A stretch of DNA of 36,520 nt from Myxococcales bacterium (GTDB taxonomy: Bacteria; Myxococcota_A; Polyangia; Polyangiales; Polyangiaceae). Position 1 is the stretch's first letter, and every line of letters starts with the position of its first letter. The notes beneath the pieces are model-generated. The model was given only the letters and a program-made list of their open reading frames with translations, was not told the origin of the DNA and searched no databases. The translations under genes were made by a program, and so were the position numbers. Positions 2,807 to 13,110 of this stretch are shown here, piece after piece. Where the stretch lies: the NCBI GenBank assembly GCA_016794325.1, contig JAEUKG010001105.1:1-36520 (forward strand). The letters are read 5' to 3'.

Positions 2807-3820
2807 GTGATCCACGAGCAAGCGATGCTCCGCTCCACCCGCACGAACCGAGCGCGCCTGGCGGCGCTCCTCGCCCTCGCGAGCGTGGCGTTGGGCGTCG
2901 GGTGTCACCTCGTGATCGGCGTCGAGGAGCGCTCCCAGGGCGACGTCGACGCTTCGACGCGCGACGCGGACGCGCGCGACGACGCGGAGGTGGGGCCCGG
3001 GCCCGCCGACGGAGGGTCGGACGGGCGCGAGGGCTGCGACCTCGCAAAGCCCTTCGGTACGCCGGCGCCGCTCTCCGCGCTCAACTCCGTCGACGGCGAG
3101 TTCGGGGCGACGCTGTCGGTCGACGAGCTCGAGATCTTCTACACCACCACCGCGACCGGCCGCGCCGTGGTCCACCGCGCCGTCCGGCGCAAGCGCACCG
3201 ACCCCTTCGACCCTGGCGCGGTCGTCGCCGAGCTGGCGACGATCCCGCCGCCGCACTGGAGCGTGGCGCTCGGCCGGGACGACAACGAGATCTTCGTGAC
3301 CGGAAGGAGCCCTCCGCGCGACATCTACCGGGCGACGCGCCCGCGTCGCGACGCGCCGTTCAGCGGCGCGGTGCGCGTGGCCTTCGAGGGTTGGGACGCA
3401 GGCGCAGCCGAGGAGCAGGTGTTCGCCAGCGCCGCCGGGCAGCTCTACCTCGGCGTCCAGCAGGGCCCGCAGTTCGACCTCTATGTCGCGCCGCCGGACG
3501 ACGCCGGCGGCAACCTCGCCCCCGTGCCGCTCGTCTTCTTCAACACGACGGGGGCGAGCGAGGCCTGGCCCGTCCAGTCGTTCGACGGTCTCACCTTCTA
3601 CTACTCCTCGGGGGACGGGATCTCCGAGGAGATCTTGCAGTCGCGGCGCTCCAACGTGGCCACGCCGTTCCCCGCGGGGACGGCGCTGACCTTCCCCGCG
3701 TCTCCGCGCAAGCACCCGCTGTGGCTCTCCCCCGACGGCTGCCGGCTCTATCTCTCGCAGGATAACGTGCCGGGCGGCGGCGGAGGCGCCGACCTCTTCG
3801 TCGCCGAGCGCCCGCCGTGA
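2807..3820 (+). CDS. PD40/TolB-like beta-propeller lipoprotein
   Basis: 337 aa. A signal peptide with Arg-rich n-region and hydrophobic core ends in a lipobox (LGVGC), so the mature protein should be lipid-anchored. Right after the Cys comes an Asp/Ala/Gly-rich tether (DVDASTRDADARDDAE and onward). The rest shows repeated propeller-like strands of the PD40 type (SVDELEIFYTT, GRDDNEIFVTG, SFDGLTFYYSS, SPDGCRLYLSQ), typical of six- or seven-bladed WD40-like domains. No enzyme motif seen. The GTG at 2807 has AGGAG five bases upstream; an ATG at 2825 also gives a good signal peptide. Divergent from the kinase operon. Role is probably binding or scaffolding at the envelope. Confidence 0.85.
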   Translation: MIHEQAMLRSTRTNRARLAALLALASVALGVGCHLVIGVEERSQGDVDASTRDADARDDAEVGPGPADGGSDGREGCDLAKPFGTPAPLSALNSVDGEFGATLSVDELEIFYTTTATGRAVVHRAVRRKRTDPFDPGAVVAELATIPPPHWSVALGRDDNEIFVTGRSPPRDIYRATRPRRDAPFSGAVRVAFEGWDAGAAEEQVFASAAGQLYLGVQQGPQFDLYVAPPDDAGGNLAPVPLVFFNTTGASEAWPVQSFDGLTFYYSSGDGISEEILQSRRSNVATPFPAGTALTFPASPRKHPLWLSPDGCRLYLSQDNVPGGGGGADLFVAERPP

Positions 3821-3860
3821 GCGCCCTCCGGGCGCCCGCCCACCGCCCACCGCCCGCGCC

Positions 3861-3883
3861 CGCGCCTGGGCTCGCCCAGCGCG
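3861..3883 (+). terminator. GC-rich hairpin after propeller lipoprotein gene
   Basis: CTGGGC-TC-GCCCAG with flanking CGCG on both sides forms a strong stem-loop 40 bp after the stop codon. A smaller hairpin (GCGCCC-TCC-GGGCGC) lies just after the stop. There is no T-run, so intrinsic termination is only possible, not shown. Confidence 0.35.
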
Positions 3884-3937
3884 CCCCTGCGCCGTGGCAC
3901 GACCCCTGCTGAGAGACCCCGCATCGGGAGGTCTACG

Positions 3938-4525
3938 ATGGTCGCCAATCGGAGCGGATGGGTGGTGGCGGGGGTGGTCGCGTGTGCGATGTTCGGCGGC
4001 GCGCGCGACGCGTCGGCGGTGCAGGGGGCCGAGTGGGAGATCCGGAGCGGGGGTGTGCTCGTCGGGATGGGAGACGCCGAGAACCGCACCAACAACACCG
4101 CGGCGGTGTGGTGCACGGGCACCGCGTGGCAGGCGACGGCGAAGTCCGTCCCCTACTTCTTCACGAGGAGCGGCGACTACACCAAAGACGTCGCCATCTA
4201 CCAGGAGAAGCGCGCGCCGAACGGCGACCCGAAGGTGGAGCTCTACGCGACGCTCAAGGCCAACGGTCGCCTCGAGCTCCCGAACGGGAACCGGCGCGCG
4301 ATCATCCAACAGGAGGTCGGCGGCGGGGGCACCACCTACAAGACCACGTTCCGCGAGGAGTTCGGCGCGCTCCAAGGCTACGTGTACTGGTCGCCGGTGC
4401 CCGGGAGCTCGGGCTTCTACGACGCCAAAGACAAGAAGATCGGGACGTTCGGCAGCAAGATCGACCGCGACATGCGCATGCTCGCGCTCTTCTACTTCCT
4501 CGTGTACCCGGGCTACTGCACGTAG
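3938..4525 (+). CDS. Small secreted protein of unknown function
   Basis: 195 aa. A Sec signal peptide (hydrophobic VVAGVVACAMFGG, cleavage likely after DASA at residue 27) leads into a mature domain of about 168 residues. It has alternating short beta-type segments, two cysteines (C59 in VWCTG and one next to the C-terminus in GYCT) that could form a disulfide, and no catalytic motif I recognise. The start is well supported by GGGAGG about seven bases upstream of the ATG, a proper Shine-Dalgarno in contrast to many neighbours. It sits among exported proteins but appears separately transcribed. Function unknown; periplasmic or extracellular by signal. Confidence 0.8.
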   Translation: MVANRSGWVVAGVVACAMFGGARDASAVQGAEWEIRSGGVLVGMGDAENRTNNTAAVWCTGTAWQATAKSVPYFFTRSGDYTKDVAIYQEKRAPNGDPKVELYATLKANGRLELPNGNRRAIIQQEVGGGGTTYKTTFREEFGALQGYVYWSPVPGSSGFYDAKDKKIGTFGSKIDRDMRMLALFYFLVYPGYCT

Positions 4526-4563
4526 GCGGCCGGGCCGGGCCGCCGCCGACGGCGCGGGGTTTT
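4525..4563 (+). terminator. Candidate terminator hairpin with distal T-run
   Basis: GGCGGCC (4525-4531) pairs with GGCCGCC (4538-4544) around a 6-nt loop directly at the stop codon. A second short stem (GCCG/CGGC) and then TTTT at 4560-4563 follow. The T-run is not adjacent to the main stem, so this is a moderate call. The same T-run borders the next gene's -10. Confidence 0.35.
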
Positions 4564-4565
4564 GC

Positions 4566-4571
4566 TATCCT
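4566..4571 (+). promoter_or_regulatory. Start-adjacent -10 element TATCCT
   Basis: TATCCT preceded by GC lies 5 nt before the ATG at 4577. Transcription would begin at or next to the start codon, so the mRNA is probably leaderless. No -35 box visible. Confidence 0.55.
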
Positions 4572-4576
4572 GAGGC

Positions 4577-5482
4577 ATGCGCTTGTCTCGCTTCGCCCTC
4601 GCCGCGTCCGCCGTCACCGCCGTCGTCGCCACCGTCGTCGCCTGCTCGAGCGACCCCGATCCGCCCGCGAAGAAGGCGCCGTTCGGCTGCTGCGAAGAGG
4701 CCGCCCCTCCGCGGTGCACGCGCATCGCGTTCGGTCGCGCCAAGCGCACCGCGGACGACACGTGCATCGACGCGCGCGACGGCGCGATCCCCGATCCGAA
4801 CGCCCCCGGCTGGACCCAGGAGGTCGACGCCGACGGCTGCAAGAAGTGGGTCCCAGCCCCGGGGACGAAGACGATCGCCTGCGGCGGCGCCGATGGCGGC
4901 CTCGACGGCGGGGCGGACGCGCCGGCCGACGCGCCGTTCGACGCGCCGCCGACGCCGGGCCTGTACGTCGCGATCTGCCGCACGGTCGTCGGCGCGAGCG
5001 ACGCCAACGACCTCCGCTTCTGGGTCGACGCCGCGGTCGCGTCGCCCGCCTCCGACGCCGGAGGCGGTGAGGCCGGCGCCGACTCCTCGATCACGCTCGT
5101 CATGACCCCGCTCGTCGGGTGGAAGGCGGGCGCGCCCGCACCCCCCGCGACGGTCACCGCGTCGCTCAAGCTCGGGGCGCCGGTGACGGCGACGAGCCCG
5201 GTCGCCGCCAACAAGGTGTATCGTGCATCTTTCGGAGCAGCGACCCTCCTCGCCGACGCGAACAGCATCTCCGGGCGCGAGCTCGTCTTCTCCGAGCTCA
5301 CCCTCGACGGGACGTTCTCGGGGCTCGGCAAGGGCTTCTGCGGGCAGCTGTCGGCGAAGCTCACCCAGCCCGTCGCCCTGGAGCTGAAGGGCGACCAGAA
5401 CACGTGCCTCTTCTTCCCGACCTCCGAGGGCGCCCCGCTGCCGGAGCCCGCGCCCGCCGACTTCGTGTGCGCGCTCCCCTGA
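4577..5482 (+). CDS. Cys-rich lipoprotein, unknown function
   Basis: 301 aa. Signal peptide and lipobox (VVAC, C23) predict a lipid-anchored envelope protein. The N-terminal half is rich in cysteines (FGCCEE, PRCTR, DTCID, DGCKKW) and includes a WTQEVDADGCKKWVP stretch; a Gly/Asp/Ala spacer (DGGLDGGADAPADAP) at about 97-113 links to a C-terminal half with more cysteines (ICRTV, FCGQL, TCLFF, FVCALP), consistent with disulfide-stabilised exported domains. No recognised catalytic motif. Start placed by a -10 hexamer five bases upstream. The internal Asp/Ala linker is like those after the lipobox in neighbouring lipoproteins. Confidence 0.8.
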   Translation: MRLSRFALAASAVTAVVATVVACSSDPDPPAKKAPFGCCEEAAPPRCTRIAFGRAKRTADDTCIDARDGAIPDPNAPGWTQEVDADGCKKWVPAPGTKTIACGGADGGLDGGADAPADAPFDAPPTPGLYVAICRTVVGASDANDLRFWVDAAVASPASDAGGGEAGADSSITLVMTPLVGWKAGAPAPPATVTASLKLGAPVTATSPVAANKVYRASFGAATLLADANSISGRELVFSELTLDGTFSGLGKGFCGQLSAKLTQPVALELKGDQNTCLFFPTSEGAPLPEPAPADFVCALP

Positions 5483-5545
5483 GCGCCGATCGCTCGCCGA
5501 CCCGATTTCGTTGAGACGCCTGCGACATGTGGGTGTCACGGGGTC

Positions 5546-8017
5546 ATGAGGCCTCGCGTCGCGCTGCTCGTCCTCGTCTCGTCGTTCGCCTGCGGGGAGG
5601 GGTCGGCGCCCACCGCCGGCTCGGAGCCGCCGCTCGCGCCGCCGAAGGAGCCGGGCGGCGAGGTCGGCGCGCGCCGGGTGTGGGTGGCGACGGACCCGGG
5701 CCTCGGCGCGCCGCTGCGACGCCGCGTCCTCGATCACCTGCGCGCACGGTACGGCGCGGGCGTCACCGAGGTCGACCCCACGCGCGTCCCCGCCGTCGGT
5801 CCGAGCGACGTCACGATCGGGCTCGGCGACACCGCCCTCACCCGCGAGCTCGTCTCGGCCGCGGACGTCGCCTCCCTCCCGTCGGAGGGCTTCGTCCTCC
5901 GGGCCGACGCTACCGGACGGCGGATCGCGGTCGACGGCCGCGACGGACGCGCGCGCGACCGCCGCGGGGTCGCGTTCGGCGCGTACGCGCTCCTCGAGCG
6001 GCTCGGCCAGCGATTCCTCCACCCCCTCGCGCCGTCGCCCGCCGCCGGTGACCCGCCGGTGCTCGCGTCGCTCGACGTTCGCGAGTCGCCGCGCTGGCGG
6101 CTCCGGGGGCTCCAGCTCCACACCATGCACCCGACCGAGCTCGCCGACATGCTCAACGGGTGGGGCCCCGGCGGGCCCGACGACGAGGCCGGCTTTCGCG
6201 CCACCCTCGACGAGTGGGAGCGCTTCCTCGAGTGGATGGTGGCGAACCGCCAGAACCACGTGCACTGGGTGCTGCTCGAGGCCGACTCCTGGGCGACGTT
6301 CGCCCAGAGCCCGACGCGGCAGGCGCGCCTCGCCGAGCTCGTGTCGCGCGCGCACGGCTTCGGCGTCGAGGTGGGGATCGACGTGCCGATCGCGCTCCAG
6401 CAGCAGCACACGTTCCGCCTCCTCACCAAGCAGGGCGAGCTCGGCGACGAGCTCGCGCAGATCCGCGCGCGCGTCGACTGGCTCATGGCCGCGGGCTTCG
6501 ACTACCTCGCCACCGAAAACGGCACGACCGAGTTCACCCACCCGCCGCCGGCCCGCATGTTGGCGTGGATGAGCGAGCTCGCGCGCCACCTCGACGAGCG
6601 GCACGGCAAGCCCTCGTTCATCAAGATCCACGCGTCCACCGGCCAGTCGGCCGCCGGCTACCCCGACCCGCGGACCGGCGCGCCGATCAACTTCAACTTC
6701 CTCCCGCACTTCGCCGACCCGCGCCTCGGGATCATGCCCCACACCGTCCAGCACTACGGCCTCGACGATCGCGCGCCGACCTACGGGAACAAGGATTTCG
6801 CGTACATGCGCGACTTCCTCCGCTACGAGGTCGGTCGCCGGCCGGTGGTGTGGCACCCCGAGACCGCGTATTGGGTGAGCTTCGACGTCGACGTCCCTCT
6901 ATTCCTTCCGGTATATGCCGAGCGGCGGGTGCACGACCTGCGGCTCCTCGCCGCCGACGAGCGGAGCGGGCTCATGAACGGCGGCGGCCGGATGGACGGC
7001 CAGATGACGTTCTCGAGCGGCTGGGAGTGGGGCTACTGGCTGAACGACGTGGTGACGGCGCGCGCGTCGTGGGACCCCCACGAGGAGGCGCCGAGCGACG
7101 ACGCCGCCCTCCGCGCGATCCTCGAGCCGCTGTTCGCCCCTGCCGGCGCGACGAGCGGGCGCCTCGTCGACGCCGTCGCCGCCGCCGCGAAGTCGCAGAA
7201 GGCGCTGCTCATCGACGGGACGGTGGGCGGCGTGACCCCCGCGAACCCCGAGCGGCGCAACGGCCAGGCGTACCTCCAGGGCTTCGAGGCGTGGGACGAC
7301 GTGAGCGCCCTCGGCGCGGCCATCCCCGGCCTCGGGGCCGCGCAGATGACGCAGCCCGCGCGCCTCGGCCTGGTCGAGATGCGCACGCCCATCCACCCGC
7401 CGCCTCGCTACACCGGCGAGGTCGAGCCGCTGCTCGCGGCGATGGACGCCGACTTCGGGGCCCGGGCCGACGCGATGGAGGCGATCGCGAGAGACACGAC
7501 GGGGCCGCTCGCCGCGCTCGCGAAGGAGCTCGCGGACGCCGCGCGCGTCACCGCGCTTCGGGCTCGCCAGGTCCACGGCTTGTACGACTACGTCGACGGG
7601 ATCGGCCCCGCGTCGCCGGGCCGCTTCGCGCGCCTCGCCGTCGCGCGCAAGGCGCTCGACGACGCGGCGGTCGTCGTCAAGCGCCGCGAGGCGGAGTACC
7701 GCGTGCCGCTCGTGCGCGTCGCCGGGTGGAGGAGGAACCCGACGTCGTACCCCTTCGGCTATCTCTGGACGGTGCACACGCTCCACTACCTCTGGCGCGA
7801 CGAGGGCAAGGCCGTCGACGCGCCCCGGAGCCCTTGCTACCTGAACGTCCTCAACATCGCCGACATCGGGATGGGCGAGGGGATCGCGACCGACGGCGGG
7901 CGCGCGCTCCGGAGCGCCCTCGACGCCGCGGGGATGGGCGATCGCTACGCCGAGTGCGCGTCCGAGCCCGCCAGCGAGCCCGTCTACCCTCCCGACGGGC
8001 TCCGGACGCGTCCTTGA
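5546..8017 (+). CDS. Glycosidase-like lipoprotein (GH20/GH67-type N-domain plus barrel)
   Basis: 823 aa. A short signal peptide ends in a lipobox-like SSFAC (C16). Residues about 45-165 resemble the alpha/beta domain before the barrel in GH20, GH67, GH84 and GH115 enzymes, most clearly the segment VAFGAYALLERLGQRFLHP. From about 190 a TIM-barrel-like region follows with His-Trp-rich strands (QNHVHWVLLEADSW, GVEVGIDVPIAL, DYLATENGTTEF, SFIKIHAST, PVVWHPETAYW). A helical C-terminal region follows. This suggests a surface or periplasmic enzyme acting on uronic-acid or hexosamine glycans, but I cannot assign catalytic residues or substrate. Stand-alone gene; ATG at 5546 has no clear Shine-Dalgarno. 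Alternative: a non-catalytic sugar-binding protein of the same fold. Confidence 0.72.
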   Translation: MRPRVALLVLVSSFACGEGSAPTAGSEPPLAPPKEPGGEVGARRVWVATDPGLGAPLRRRVLDHLRARYGAGVTEVDPTRVPAVGPSDVTIGLGDTALTRELVSAADVASLPSEGFVLRADATGRRIAVDGRDGRARDRRGVAFGAYALLERLGQRFLHPLAPSPAAGDPPVLASLDVRESPRWRLRGLQLHTMHPTELADMLNGWGPGGPDDEAGFRATLDEWERFLEWMVANRQNHVHWVLLEADSWATFAQSPTRQARLAELVSRAHGFGVEVGIDVPIALQQQHTFRLLTKQGELGDELAQIRARVDWLMAAGFDYLATENGTTEFTHPPPARMLAWMSELARHLDERHGKPSFIKIHASTGQSAAGYPDPRTGAPINFNFLPHFADPRLGIMPHTVQHYGLDDRAPTYGNKDFAYMRDFLRYEVGRRPVVWHPETAYWVSFDVDVPLFLPVYAERRVHDLRLLAADERSGLMNGGGRMDGQMTFSSGWEWGYWLNDVVTARASWDPHEEAPSDDAALRAILEPLFAPAGATSGRLVDAVAAAAKSQKALLIDGTVGGVTPANPERRNGQAYLQGFEAWDDVSALGAAIPGLGAAQMTQPARLGLVEMRTPIHPPPRYTGEVEPLLAAMDADFGARADAMEAIARDTTGPLAALAKELADAARVTALRARQVHGLYDYVDGIGPASPGRFARLAVARKALDDAAVVVKRREAEYRVPLVRVAGWRRNPTSYPFGYLWTVHTLHYLWRDEGKAVDAPRSPCYLNVLNIADIGMGEGIATDGGRALRSALDAAGMGDRYAECASEPASEPVYPPDGLRTRP

Positions 8018-8033
8018 GCGCTCCGTCGCGGCG

Positions 8034-9320
8034 TCACGCGCGCGACGGGCGCGCGCTCGCGGCGAGCTCGATCACGCTCTTGTAGTGCGCTTGCACGCGG
8101 CCGAGATCGACCGATTCCATGAACGACGTGAAGGCGAAATAGGGGAGCAAGGTGTCCCAGCGCTTGAGCCAGCGCGGCCGGTGTTTGGGGCGCGAGAGGA
8201 GGCCCATCTCGCGCAGGGCGATCATCGCCTCGATGTCGTCGAGCGCGATCCGTCCGCACACGAGGAGCTCGGCCTCGTCGCGGAACCCGCCGCGGATGAA
8301 CGCGGCGAGGAACGCGTACACGTGGAGGAGCCCCGCGAGGTAGCAGGCGTCCTTGGTGAAGGGCGCGCCGCCCTCGACGAGGCCGCCGCGGCACACGCGC
8401 GCGGCGTCGAAATACGCGTCACGCGGCGCCGCGCCGCGCTCGAGCAGCGCCCGGTAGAGATCGAGGAAGCTCGCCCCGTCCTCCGCCATCGCGACGAGCT
8501 TCACCCGCGTCGCGAGCCGCGACAGGCGCGACGACGCGAGCGAGCGGTCGTAGAGCTCGGCGAAGACGGCGAGTCCCTCTTGCGTCGGCGTGCTGCGCGG
8601 ACCGCCGGCCTTGAGGAACGGCGCGTGACGCTGCTCGGCGCCGTTGCGCGCGGTGAACGCGTGCGTCTCGACCTCGTGCACGAAGAGGCCCGCGGCCTCC
8701 CACGGGAGGAACGTGGCGTCGGCGCGGACGCGGACGCGCGACATGCCGGCGATCGCCTTCGACGCGCACTTCTCGTCGACGACGACGTCGATCTTGATCG
8801 ACGGGCGATGGCGCGCGATCCGCGCGTCGAGCTCCGCCTTCAGCGCCTCGGCGTCCATGGGCTCGCGCTCTGCGTCGGCGGTCTCGTCCCAACCGTGCAC
8901 CTGCAGGCGCTCGGTGAGGTGGTCGGCGAGGTCGACGTTGCGCACCGAGAGGCCGAAGAACGTGGACGTGGCGCTGCCGTAGATCTCCCGCGAGAGCTCG
9001 CCGAAGGCCCGGGTGCCGCTCGCGGCGATGAGGCGGTTCCGGTCGATGACGGAGGCGACGACCCGGCGCAGCCACACCGAGATCGCGTGGTCGCCGTCGA
9101 TCGAGGCGATGACCCGCGCGAGCTCGGCGTTGGTGGCGTCGAACGCCGTTCGGTCGAGGTCGTACGAGACCTCGGGGAGGCGCGTCGCCTTGGCCGCGAA
9201 GAACTTCTCCTCGACGTCGCGCGGCCAGCCGATGTCCTCGAGGAGGTTCTGCTTGCCGGGCGCGTTCGCGAGGGCAGCGGCCACGAGCTCGAGCTGCGCG
9301 CGCGCGGTTTCGGTCTTCAC
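8034..9320 (-). CDS. DUF1704/MATCAP-type zinc metallopeptidase (QEGLA motif)
   Basis: 428 aa. Residues 215-220 are HEVETH, an HEXXXH zinc-binding motif, and 247-251 are QEGLA, the two signatures of the DUF1704 family (often called flavohemoglobin expression-modulating QEGLA motif protein). In eukaryotes the same family includes MATCAP (KIAA0895L), a tubulin-tail tyrosine carboxypeptidase whose zinc is held by the HEXXXH histidines and a downstream glutamate; here H215, H220 and E248 would be the ligands and E216 the catalytic base. The bacterial substrate is unknown. No signal peptide, so probably cytoplasmic. Starts with GTG, supported by a TACGCT hexamer seven bases upstream. Convergent with the glycosidase-like gene, 16 bp apart, and not in an operon. 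Confidence 0.9.
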   Translation of the reverse strand: MKTETARAQLELVAAALANAPGKQNLLEDIGWPRDVEEKFFAAKATRLPEVSYDLDRTAFDATNAELARVIASIDGDHAISVWLRRVVASVIDRNRLIAASGTRAFGELSREIYGSATSTFFGLSVRNVDLADHLTERLQVHGWDETADAEREPMDAEALKAELDARIARHRPSIKIDVVVDEKCASKAIAGMSRVRVRADATFLPWEAAGLFVHEVETHAFTARNGAEQRHAPFLKAGGPRSTPTQEGLAVFAELYDRSLASSRLSRLATRVKLVAMAEDGASFLDLYRALLERGAAPRDAYFDAARVCRGGLVEGGAPFTKDACYLAGLLHVYAFLAAFIRGGFRDEAELLVCGRIALDDIEAMIALREMGLLSRPKHRPRWLKRWDTLLPYFAFTSFMESVDLGRVQAHYKSVIELAASARPSRA

Positions 9321-9327
9321 GCGATGA

Positions 9328-9333
9328 AGCGTA
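9328..9333 (-). promoter_or_regulatory. Start-adjacent -10 element TACGCT
   Basis: TACGCT preceded by GC on the minus strand, 7 nt before the GTG at 9320. Supports a leaderless transcript for the DUF1704 gene. Confidence 0.5.
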
Positions 9334-9370
9334 GCCTACTCCCGCGGATCGTAGCGTACGTCGTCGCGCC

Positions 9371-11950
9371 TCAGGAGGCGCGACGGATCCCCGACGCCTC
9401 GGTCGCGTCGAGGCGGCGGAGGTAACGCGCGATCTGCTCGCACGCGCTGGAGAGCGCGAGGTCGAGCGCCGGCGTCGACGCCTCGACGGCGGCGGCGTCC
9501 CCCGCGATCGCGGCCGCTTCGATCGCCCTCGTCGCCACGACCACCGCCTCGAAGCCGAGGTTCCCCGCCCCGCCGCGGAGCGCGTGCATCCGACGCGCGA
9601 GGGCGTCGAGGTCGTCGTGCGTCGCGGCCGCCGCGGCGTGACGCTGGGCGCCCTCCTGGAAGGCTCGCACGACGTCGCGCGTCGCCTCGACGCCGAGCTC
9701 CGCCTCGAGGGTCACGAGGCCCGGCGCGGGCGCCTCCTCCTCCTCCGCGAATCGCTCGTGCGCTCGCGCGCTCCACTCGTCCACCTTCTGCAGGAGCTGC
9801 GCTCGGACGAACGGCTTGGCCAGGTAGTCGTCCATCCCCGCGTCGAGGCACATCGCCCGGTCGCTCGGCTGGGCGTTGGCGGTGAGCGCGATGATCGGCA
9901 CGCGGGCGCGCCCGCTGTCGAGCCCGCGGATCGCCTTGGTCGCGCCCAGCCCGTCGAGCTCGGGCATCTGGACGTCCATCAACACGAGATCGTAATGGCG
10001 CGCGCGCACGGCGCTGACCGCCTCGAGCCCGTTGGCGGCGGCGTCCACCCGGTGCCCGGCCTTCTCGAGGTAGCCCATCGCGACGCGGACGTTGATGTGG
10101 TTGTCGTCCACGACGAGGAGCCGGAGCTTGCGCGGACCGTCCTCGGCGACGGCGGCGGGAGGCGGGGAGGGAGCCGGCGCTGGCGGAGGAGGAGGGGCGG
10201 CCGTCGGGGGTCGCGCGGGGAGGGGTGCCGGCGGCTCGGGAGCGGGGCGGACGTCGTCGACCACCGCTGGCGGAGCCTCGGTCGCGCGCGCGGGCCCCGG
10301 CGCACGCCGGGCGTGGGTCGCGATCGCCTGACGGAGCGCCGACGGTCGGACCGGCTTCGTGAACACGACGTCGAAGCGACCGGAGGTGTGCGCGCGGCGC
10401 AGCGCCTCGGGGCCGTCGGACGACGCGAGCACGAGCGGGGTCGAGGCGAGCTGCGGGAGGGCCTTGAGCATCGCCGCGAGCGCCTCGCCGTCCATCCCCG
10501 GCATCTGGTGGTCGACGATCGCGATGTCGAACGGCGCGCCGTCGGCGATGGCCTTCACGAACGCCACGAGGGCGGCGTCGCCGCTCGCGGCGGTGGTGGC
10601 CTGCACGCCCCAGGCGCGGAGCTGGCGCTCGAAGATGCGCAGGTTCGTGGGGTTGTCGTCGACGACGAGCACCCGCAGATCCGGGGCGAGGACGTCGGTG
10701 CTCGCGCCGTCGGCGACCTCGAGCGGCACCACGAGCCAGAACACCGTCCCGCGCTCCTCGCCGGGGTGGAAGCCGATGTCGCCGCCCATGAGCTGGACGA
10801 TGCGCTTGCAGATCGCGAGCCCGAGGCCCGTGCCGCCGAAGCGGCGCGTGCTCGACGAGTCGACCTGCACGAACTCCTGGAAGAGCCGAGCGCCCGCCTC
10901 CTTCGGGATCCCGATCCCCGTGTCGCGCACCTCGAACCTCACCCGCGCGCGGCCATCGTCCGCGTAGCCCTCGAACGACGCCTCGACCGTGACCTCGCCG
11001 GACTCGGTGAACTTCACGGCGTTCCCCACGAGGTTGAGGAGCACTTGGCGGAGGCGGCCGGCGTCGCCCATGACGCGCGAGGCCACGTCGGCGCCGACGA
11101 TGCACCCGACCTCGACCCCCTTCGCGTGGGCGCGGGGCGCGACGATCTCGACGACGCTCTCGATCACGGGAGCGAGCTCGAAGTCGTTCTTCTCGAGCTC
11201 CATCTTCCCGGCCTCGATCTTCGAGAAGTCGAGGATGTCGTTGATGATTTGGAGGAGGGCCTCGGCCGAGTCGCGGATGGCGGAGGCGTAGGACGACTGC
11301 ACCCCGTCGAGCTCGGTGTCGAGGAGGAGGCCGACCATGCCGAGCACGCCGTTCATCGGCGTGCGGATCTCGTGGCTCATCGTCGCGAGGAAATCGGACT
11401 TCGCCCGCGACGCGGCCTCGGCCTTGGCCGTCGCGTCCCGGAGCGTGGTCTCGGTCTCCTTCCGGAGCGAGATGTCACGGACGACGCAGACCGAGAGCGA
11501 CTCGCCGGCTTCGGTGAGCACGCTCCGCGAGCACTCGACGGCGAAGGTCGACCCGTCCTTGCGGTGGCCGACCGCCTCGAAGACGCCGGACCCGGCCGCC
11601 GCGTCGAAGAGGTTGCCGAGCGGGCAGCCGACGAGGTCGCCGGGCGCGTGCCCGAACATGCGCGCCACCGCGAGGTTCGCGCGCTCGATCGCGCCGTTGT
11701 CGCGGACGGTGAGGATGCCCTCGGCGACGTTGGCGAGCACGGCTTGCTCGCGCGCCTCGCTCTCGGCGCGCACCCGCGCCGAGAGCTCGGTCACCTCCTC
11801 GCTCATCAGGCGGTTCGCGCGGTCCTGCCGCTCGCGCTCGAGGTCCGCCTCCTCGTACGCGCGGTCGACCAGCGTGACCAGGCGCTCGGCGTCGAGCGAC
11901 CCGTCGGGCTGGCGGCTCCGCTTGATCTGGCGTTCGAGGAGGCGATGCAT
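9371..11950 (-). CDS. Hybrid sensor histidine kinase (PAS-HisKA-HATPase-REC-REC-Hpt)
   Basis: 859 aa, no membrane segment, so cytoplasmic. Order: coiled-coil-like helix 30-70; PAS at about 70-165; HisKA with [10 protein letters not shown] (phospho-His H193); HATPase_c with NAVKF (310-314), DTGIGIP (343-349) and GGTGLGLAI (372-380); first receiver with D480 in [10 protein letters not shown] and K532; Pro-rich linker 556-600; second receiver with D659 in [10 protein letters not shown] and K712; and an Hpt domain with H789 in [11 protein letters not shown]. All phosphorelay residues are intact in both receivers. The gene begins 3 bp after the FIST-domain gene, so it is co-transcribed, and FIST is the likely sensory input. 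No output domain, so phosphate should pass from Hpt to a response regulator elsewhere. Confidence 0.93.
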
Positions 11951-11953
11951 CGC

Positions 11954-13075
11954 TCAGGCGGCCTCCGAGAGGGTCGTGATCGTCATGGTCTGGTTGTGGA
12001 GCTCGCAGATCCCGGTGGCGCTGTGGGGCGAGAGCTCTCCGTAGGAGTAGAAGCCGAGCGTCGCGCACTTCGGGCCGAGCACGTCGCACACCGCCTCGAC
12101 CTCGTCGGAGACGGTCTGGCCGAGGAAGAGCTTGCGGCCGATGCAGCTCACGAGGATCGCGAGGGAGTCGCTGTCGCCGTGCGCGGCGTCCTCCGCCGCC
12201 CGCGCGGCGCCCTCCACGAGCCGTTGTTTGGAGCCTCGCATGAGCTGGACGGTCGCCCCCATCGGGATGTCGCCGGCGAACGTCATGCTCTTGGTCGCCT
12301 CGTCGACTCCGACGACGGTGCGCACGAGGTCCGCCTCACGGGAGTCGCTGCGGCGCAGGCACAGCGGGAAGAGGAGGGCAGTGCCGGGCAGGCCTTCGGC
12401 CTCCTTGCCCAGGTACCTCTTGTAGAGGTCGAGCGCGGGCTGCCCGTCGAGCTCGTAGAGCACGCTCCCGGCGGACTTGGTGACGAGGCGCTCCGGACCG
12501 AAGACCTCCCAGCCGCCGACGCTGCCGTGACCGATGGTGAGGGACTCGCCGTGGAGGCCGACCGCGGCGATCACCCCGATGCGGGGGAGCGCGTCGGCGC
12601 CGACCTGGGTCGCGCCGAAGCGCGCGCCGTCGCCGGCGAGGCCGCCGGTGATGATCACGCCGTCCCCGAGGACGCTGCGCAGCCCGGCGACGAGCTCGCT
12701 GCCGTTGACGCGGGTGCCGTCCGCGAGCACGAAGAGGCACCGGAGCGTCGGGGTCGCGAGCTCCTTGGCGAGCCGCGTCCCGGCCGCGAACGAGTCGCTG
12801 GCCACGCCGATGTTCGTCTCGGCGAGCGACACGCGCGTCTTCTCGAACGAGACCGCGGCGGTGACGACCGACCCGTCGTGCACGTCGGAACCGACGATCT
12901 CGCCGCCGGTCGTGCACCCGGTGATGCGCGCCTTGGGGTAGCGCGCGCGGATCTCCTCCCATCGCTCCGCCGTCAGCGCCTCCGGCGCGCCGAAGTAGAG
13001 GACCCAGTCGGCGTCTGCGACCGCCTCCTGGCTCCACCCACCTTCACTGGTGTGTACGCTCGTCGTAACGCGCAT
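11954..13075 (-). CDS. FIST (FIST_N + FIST_C) signal-sensing protein
   Basis: 373 aa, soluble. The N-terminal half has FIST_N features (WVLYFGAPEAL, RITGCTTGGEIVG, then a VFVLADG-like strand LFVLADGTRVNGSE and ITGGLAGDGARF), and the C-terminal half is FIST_C (GGWEVFG, VTKSAGSVLYELDGQPALDLY, and the last GFYSYGELSP with CELHNQT). FIST domains are sensory modules; one well-studied group, NosP, binds haem and nitric oxide and controls a histidine kinase encoded next to it. Here a hybrid kinase follows after 3 bp. I cannot tell from sequence whether haem is bound. The ATG is well supported by GGAGG about seven bases upstream. A perfect inverted repeat lies 22 bp upstream. Confidence 0.9.
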   Translation of the reverse strand: MRVTTSVHTSEGGWSQEAVADADWVLYFGAPEALTAERWEEIRARYPKARITGCTTGGEIVGSDVHDGSVVTAAVSFEKTRVSLAETNIGVASDSFAAGTRLAKELATPTLRCLFVLADGTRVNGSELVAGLRSVLGDGVIITGGLAGDGARFGATQVGADALPRIGVIAAVGLHGESLTIGHGSVGGWEVFGPERLVTKSAGSVLYELDGQPALDLYKRYLGKEAEGLPGTALLFPLCLRRSDSREADLVRTVVGVDEATKSMTFAGDIPMGATVQLMRGSKQRLVEGAARAAEDAAHGDSDSLAILVSCIGRKLFLGQTVSDEVEAVCDVLGPKCATLGFYSYGELSPHSATGICELHNQTMTITTLSEAA

Positions 13076-13096
13076 CTGTCGCCTCCGTTGTGCCCA

Positions 13097-13110
13097 GGTC
13101 ACCCGTGACC
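13097..13110. promoter_or_regulatory. Perfect inverted repeat upstream of FIST-kinase operon
   Basis: GGTCAC-CC-GTGACC, two 6-bp arms around 2 bp, ending 22 bp before the FIST start codon. Position and symmetry suit a dimeric repressor operator; a chance palindrome is possible. Confidence 0.35.

Follow-up and report, generated by a model that had tools for sequence, protein, structure and literature searches.

The MATCAP family has been known to include tubulin carboxypeptidases only since 2022–2023, and the bacterial gene at 8034–9320 of the window (the whole 36,520-nt stretch of DNA analysed here) raises the question of what reaction, and what substrate, a member of this family would have in a bacterium. 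The human enzyme TMCP1/MATCAP is a chelator-sensitive metallocarboxypeptidase that is inactivated by mutation of its motif glutamate (E281A), and human TMCPs also take off added glutamates (PMC10499314). For bacterial members, no tested activity or role was found in the literature searched; one Photobacterium member has been recorded as 27.5-fold higher at 1% than at 3% NaCl (PMC10308900). The best explanation for the window protein, which we regard as fairly likely, is a cytoplasmic, single-metal HExxxH carboxypeptidase of the MATCAP type. The features on which the argument draws are as follows.

8034–9320, minus strand: MATCAP-family (PF08014) metallopeptidase gene, GTG start, 428 aa (from Pfam, GC3 and purifying selection)
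8661–8678, minus strand: HEVETH codons, residues 215–220, with two predicted metal-binding histidines and the predicted catalytic Glu216 (from alignment)
8568–8582, minus strand: QEGLA codons, residues 247–251, with the presumed third metal ligand Glu248 (from alignment)
8340–8360, minus strand: FTKDACY codons, residues 321–327, with Lys323 and Tyr327 as candidate substrate-carboxylate or oxyanion residues
9321–9370, minus strand: 50-nt gap from the kinase end to the MATCAP start, with no sigma-70 consensus match
9371–11950, minus strand: hybrid histidine kinase, PAS-HisKA-HATPase-REC-REC-Hpt, upstream of and co-directional with the MATCAP gene (from domain matches)
11954–13108, minus strand: FIST-N/FIST-C sensor protein, whose stop codon lies 3 nt before the kinase start (from domain matches)

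The reading frame is intact at exactly 8034–9320 on the minus strand, with 428 codons, and its GC3 of 0.95 and codon composition are those of a real gene. In comparison with five homologues of 57–65% identity at the protein level, 73–80% of second codon positions are identical, while third positions, at 52–64%, lie near the level given by GC content alone, which indicates that the gene is under purifying selection. The reading frame, the HEVETH motif with its E216 numbering, and QEGLA are all as given in the preliminary description.

The assignment to DUF1704, now named MATCAP (PF08014), made in that description from the two motifs, is borne out by a match over practically the full Pfam profile (342.7 bits, E 3.1e-102, cut-off 27, profile positions 1–364 of 365), which spans residues 38–402 of the protein. 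In an alignment of 41 homologues, counted from residue 2, His215, Glu216, His220, Glu248, Arg311, Lys323, and Tyr327 are invariant, as are Gly249 of QEGLA and the F, T, K, D, and Y of FTKDACY. A search of PDB sequences with the window protein alone gave no match, and a family (A1) profile was needed to reach human MATCAP (7z5g, 7z5h, and 7z6s; E 2.8e-10 to 5.8e-9). The profile alignment places HExxxH on HEIGTH, QEGLA on EEGLA, RG on RG, and FTKDxxY on FSKDxxY (FSKDQVY), so that the proposed HExxxH-plus-glutamate metal site is in register with that of the human protein. The human proteins MATCAP/TMCP1 and TMCP2 (KIAA0895L and KIAA0895) have in common with the window protein the PF08014 domain, HExxxH, [QE]EGLA, RG, F[TS]KDxxY, and the fold, whereas the window protein is encoded by a bacterium and carries HEVETH rather than HEIGTH and QEGLA rather than EEGLA; the identity to human MATCAP is only ~17%, at which neither the reaction direction nor the substrate can be carried over. 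As judged from these alignments, the family and the predicted metal site are very probably assigned correctly.

The predicted structure points in the same direction. AlphaFold predicts the structure with high confidence (mean pLDDT 91.6, pTM 0.90), and a Foldseek search of the PDB returned E values below 0.001 only for human MATCAP chains (4e-7 to 1.6e-6, probability 1.00), in keeping with the MATCAP-like fold that had been anticipated; on the other side, the TM-scores are moderate (0.44–0.51 by query and 0.56–0.63 by target). The next matches were two M32 carboxypeptidases, B. subtilis BsuCP (3hq2) and T. cruzi TcMCP1 (3dwc), which are likewise helical metallocarboxypeptidases and show a weak fold resemblance (E 0.007–0.02). 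M32 peptidases, however, use HEXXH, whereas the window protein has HExxxH, and membership of M32 was rejected on the motif and on these E values. Peptidase family M49 (DPP III), which shares HExxxH, was also set aside: the 50 top-ranking PDB matches in Foldseek include no DPP III. In a simple hydropathy test, no signal peptide, membrane segment, or N-terminal hydrophobic stretch was found in the window protein, which agrees with the cytoplasmic location proposed earlier.

In the mechanism suggested by these comparisons, His215, His220, and Glu248 would hold one divalent metal, Glu216 would activate the attacking water, and the conserved basic and hydroxyl residues Arg311, Lys323, and Tyr327 would hold the carboxylate at the end of the substrate or stabilise the transition state; an intracellular protein or peptide would thereby lose one or a few of its C-terminal residues. 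The invariant residues, the profile and fold matches to human MATCAP, and the chemistry of the human enzyme together make an active enzyme likely, and the window protein is probably an active metal-dependent carboxypeptidase. From the same comparisons we infer metal binding, peptidase activity, and substrate class; the carboxypeptidase direction of the reaction is put forward with less confidence than the family and the metal site, and action on endogenous cytoplasmic proteins appears a reasonable proposal. That the fold has been kept for another reaction, or for binding, is highly improbable: the lack of a tested activity for any bacterial member in the literature leaves room for a non-peptidase role, but the catalytic residues are all invariant and match those of the active human enzyme.

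Whether the window protein can be named after its better-annotated relatives depends on its place within the family. The source genome (an assembly of 8.7 Mb in 1300 contigs, 88% complete) encodes three divergent MATCAP-family members: the window protein and two paralogues on other contigs, C781 and C691. The C781 paralogue, which has HEGWVH, scores marginally above the cut-off of the NCBIfam QEGLA equivalog TIGR02421 (339.0 bits against 338.65); against this profile, Pseudoalteromonas and Legionella proteins, also with HEGWVH, score 367–369, and a Sinorhizobium protein with HEIGVH scores 351. The window protein reaches only 214.9 bits, and a close relative (L096) 211.3. The TIGR02421 proteins belong to the same Pfam family, have QEGLA, and are 28–34% identical to the window protein; those tested, however, mostly carry HEGWVH and score 339–369, whereas the window protein, with HEVETH and 215 bits, falls in a separate clade. 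The label "flavohemoglobin expression-modulating", already called weak in the preliminary description, does not fit the window protein, given the score below the NCBI cut-off and the separate clade, and the origin of the name "flavohemoglobin" was not found in the literature searched. The C691 paralogue (3701–4888 of locus L095) is very divergent, with HEVEAH and without the FTKDxxY motif; next to it lies an oppositely oriented PIN-PhoH gene. A single phage record with a MATCAP homologue was also seen (OQ572403.1, "Pseudomonas phage Y1", flagged UNVERIFIED); the homologue has HEGLVH and 31% identity, and may be host DNA.

The HE[VI]E[TI]H proteins account for 36 of the 78 rows in the tree and form a single clade with support of 100/99, in which one row has HEVSTH; the HEGWVH proteins group apart, and other motif types fall into further clades. 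The human row, a fragment covering 38% of the columns and placed at the end of a very long branch, takes no firm position. The difference extends to active-site helix residues that are fixed by group, Glu218, Thr219, and Thr246 in the window clade versus Trp, Val, and Val in the HEGWVH paralogue. Window-type members (above 300 bits) occur in 17 of 60 genomes of their own order, the source genome included, and across 379 genomes sampled from the whole phylum they are confined to that order, Polyangiales, with matching contigs from Sorangium, Minicystis, Byssovorax, and other Polyangiaceae; the cultivable Sorangium cellulosum So ce26 (L038) and Minicystis rosea (L035) are among the carriers. A second match at 28–33% identity is present in 14 of these 17 genomes and is consistent with the HEGWVH paralogue, for which the motif was checked in some. 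By sequence, the HE[VI]E[TI]H proteins are a Polyangiales-type MATCAP subfamily on its own branch among the genomes sampled, and the window protein adds a distinct clade to an already known family. The window subfamily would have diverged from the HEGWVH paralogue found in most of the same genomes, and this divergence suggests that it probably has a substrate of its own. Bacterial genomes thus hold several distinct MATCAP clades, some linked to a ligase and others not, and the common name is misleading for the window clade; for experimenters, the distinction guides the choice of the paralogue to assay and of the controls to set beside it.

The surroundings of the gene offer no lead to that substrate. 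No conserved gene neighbour of the window clade that would indicate a substrate was found, the most widespread neighbour family reached no more than 10 of 37 loci (this largest cluster being loosely joined and mixed), and the patchy occurrence within one order provides no phenotype to which the clade could be tied. Both flanks are known for 25 window-clade loci. In 13 of these, the genes on either side are encoded on the opposite strand, where random orientation would give 25% (p 0.003), and in 15 the upstream gene is divergent. The window clade is thus a stand-alone gene. The preliminary description took the gene to have its own promoter and to lack an operon partner; the stand-alone character holds for the clade but not for the window, where the gene is the third of a co-directional FIST–kinase–MATCAP run. 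With the co-directional kinase gene, itself preceded by FIST, ending 50 nt before the MATCAP start, and with no sigma-70-like promoter or terminator found by a consensus scan of 7000–10500, an own promoter is not demonstrated in the window; the hexamer TAGGCT at 9333–9338, 12 nt before the GTG, is an unproven candidate −10 element, and in the source genome transcription of the kinase may continue into the MATCAP gene. On the other side, an intact 823-aa ORF (5546–8017, plus strand, GC3 0.96) is convergent with the MATCAP gene; searches of Pfam (to E 1), NCBIfam, and PDB sequences returned nothing for it.

This arrangement would also allow the protein to be a co-transcribed output or modulator of the upstream FIST–histidine kinase pathway, as the shared direction, the gaps of 3 and 50 nt, and the lack of a detected promoter before the MATCAP gene might suggest. 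We consider this distinctly improbable, since the other window-clade loci have no FIST–kinase pair beside the MATCAP gene, and the FIST–kinase pairs of relatives (L130 and L131) have no adjoining MATCAP gene; a conserved FIST–kinase–MATCAP operon was rejected because relatives carry either without the other. The window FIST protein and kinase are distantly NosP/NahK-like and fall well short of the cut-offs for NosP and NahK, so the echo of nitric oxide and flavohemoglobin is probably a coincidence, and a role of that kind through these neighbours was likewise rejected. A general intracellular oligopeptide-degrading metallopeptidase, a housekeeping enzyme with no dedicated protein substrate, would be in line with the M32 carboxypeptidases as the next structural neighbours, with the stand-alone gene geometry, and with several paralogues in one genome. 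It is nevertheless unlikely, for the human enzymes of the family act preferentially on defined C-terminal tails (PMC10499314), and a gene present in only 17 of the order's 60 examined genomes fits a housekeeping role poorly.

An alternative modelled on tubulin tyrosination and glutamylation is that the enzyme edits C-terminal residues added by an ATP-grasp amidoligase encoded elsewhere in the genome. An N-formylglutamate amidohydrolase (FGase), a longer MATCAP protein, and a GSH-S/RimK-type ATP-grasp ligase are encoded together on Sinorhizobium pSymB (4148–7949 of locus L116) and in the Polyangiales relatives L151–L153 (3680–7448 in L151; 1967–5918 in L153, where the amidohydrolase and the ligase are fused), which suggests a ligase/peptidase pair; surveys of amidoligases in the late 2000s reportedly discussed ATP-grasp genes next to such peptidases. 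The removal of added glutamates by the human TMCPs argues in the same sense, as does the presence of one FGase and one GSH-S-like ATP-grasp in the source genome. For the window protein itself, such editing is quite unlikely. The MATCAP proteins of the triads share with it the MATCAP domain, HExxxH, and QEGLA but differ in length (630–710 aa), in a long N-terminal extension, in carrying HE[IL]G[TV]H, and in their linked genes, and they fall in a clade separate from that of the window protein (100/99). Moreover, no ATP-grasp or FGase gene was found near a MATCAP gene in the window or in 79 loci from the three paralogue groups scanned, nor near any group A (window-clade) or group B gene examined, and the FGase and ATP-grasp of the source genome are located on different contigs, among unrelated genes.

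The reading of the window protein as a MATCAP carboxypeptidase acting on its own cytoplasmic substrate can be set within a wider scheme, which at present we regard as improbable: a bacterial C-terminal editing cycle resembling the tubulin code, in which ATP-grasp ligases would add residues and MATCAP-type carboxypeptidases would remove them; the core of this cycle would be the conserved FGase–MATCAP–ATP-grasp cluster, and the HE[VI]E[TI]H clade would be a Polyangiales branch dedicated to editing a protein target of its own. Should bacterial members indeed trim defined protein tails, C-terminal editing would be older than the eukaryotic cytoskeleton. A search of the source genome for a tubulin-tyrosine ligase (TTL) gave no match, with the control likewise silent. 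FtsZ, as the relative of tubulin that is present, was also considered; the protein ends in the usual conserved C-terminal peptide in genomes with and without the enzyme alike, which lends no support to FtsZ as a substrate, and its tail was rejected as a candidate on this ground. One genome (G034, contigs C23 and C79) contains three FtsZ_C domain matches, where its relatives mostly have one.
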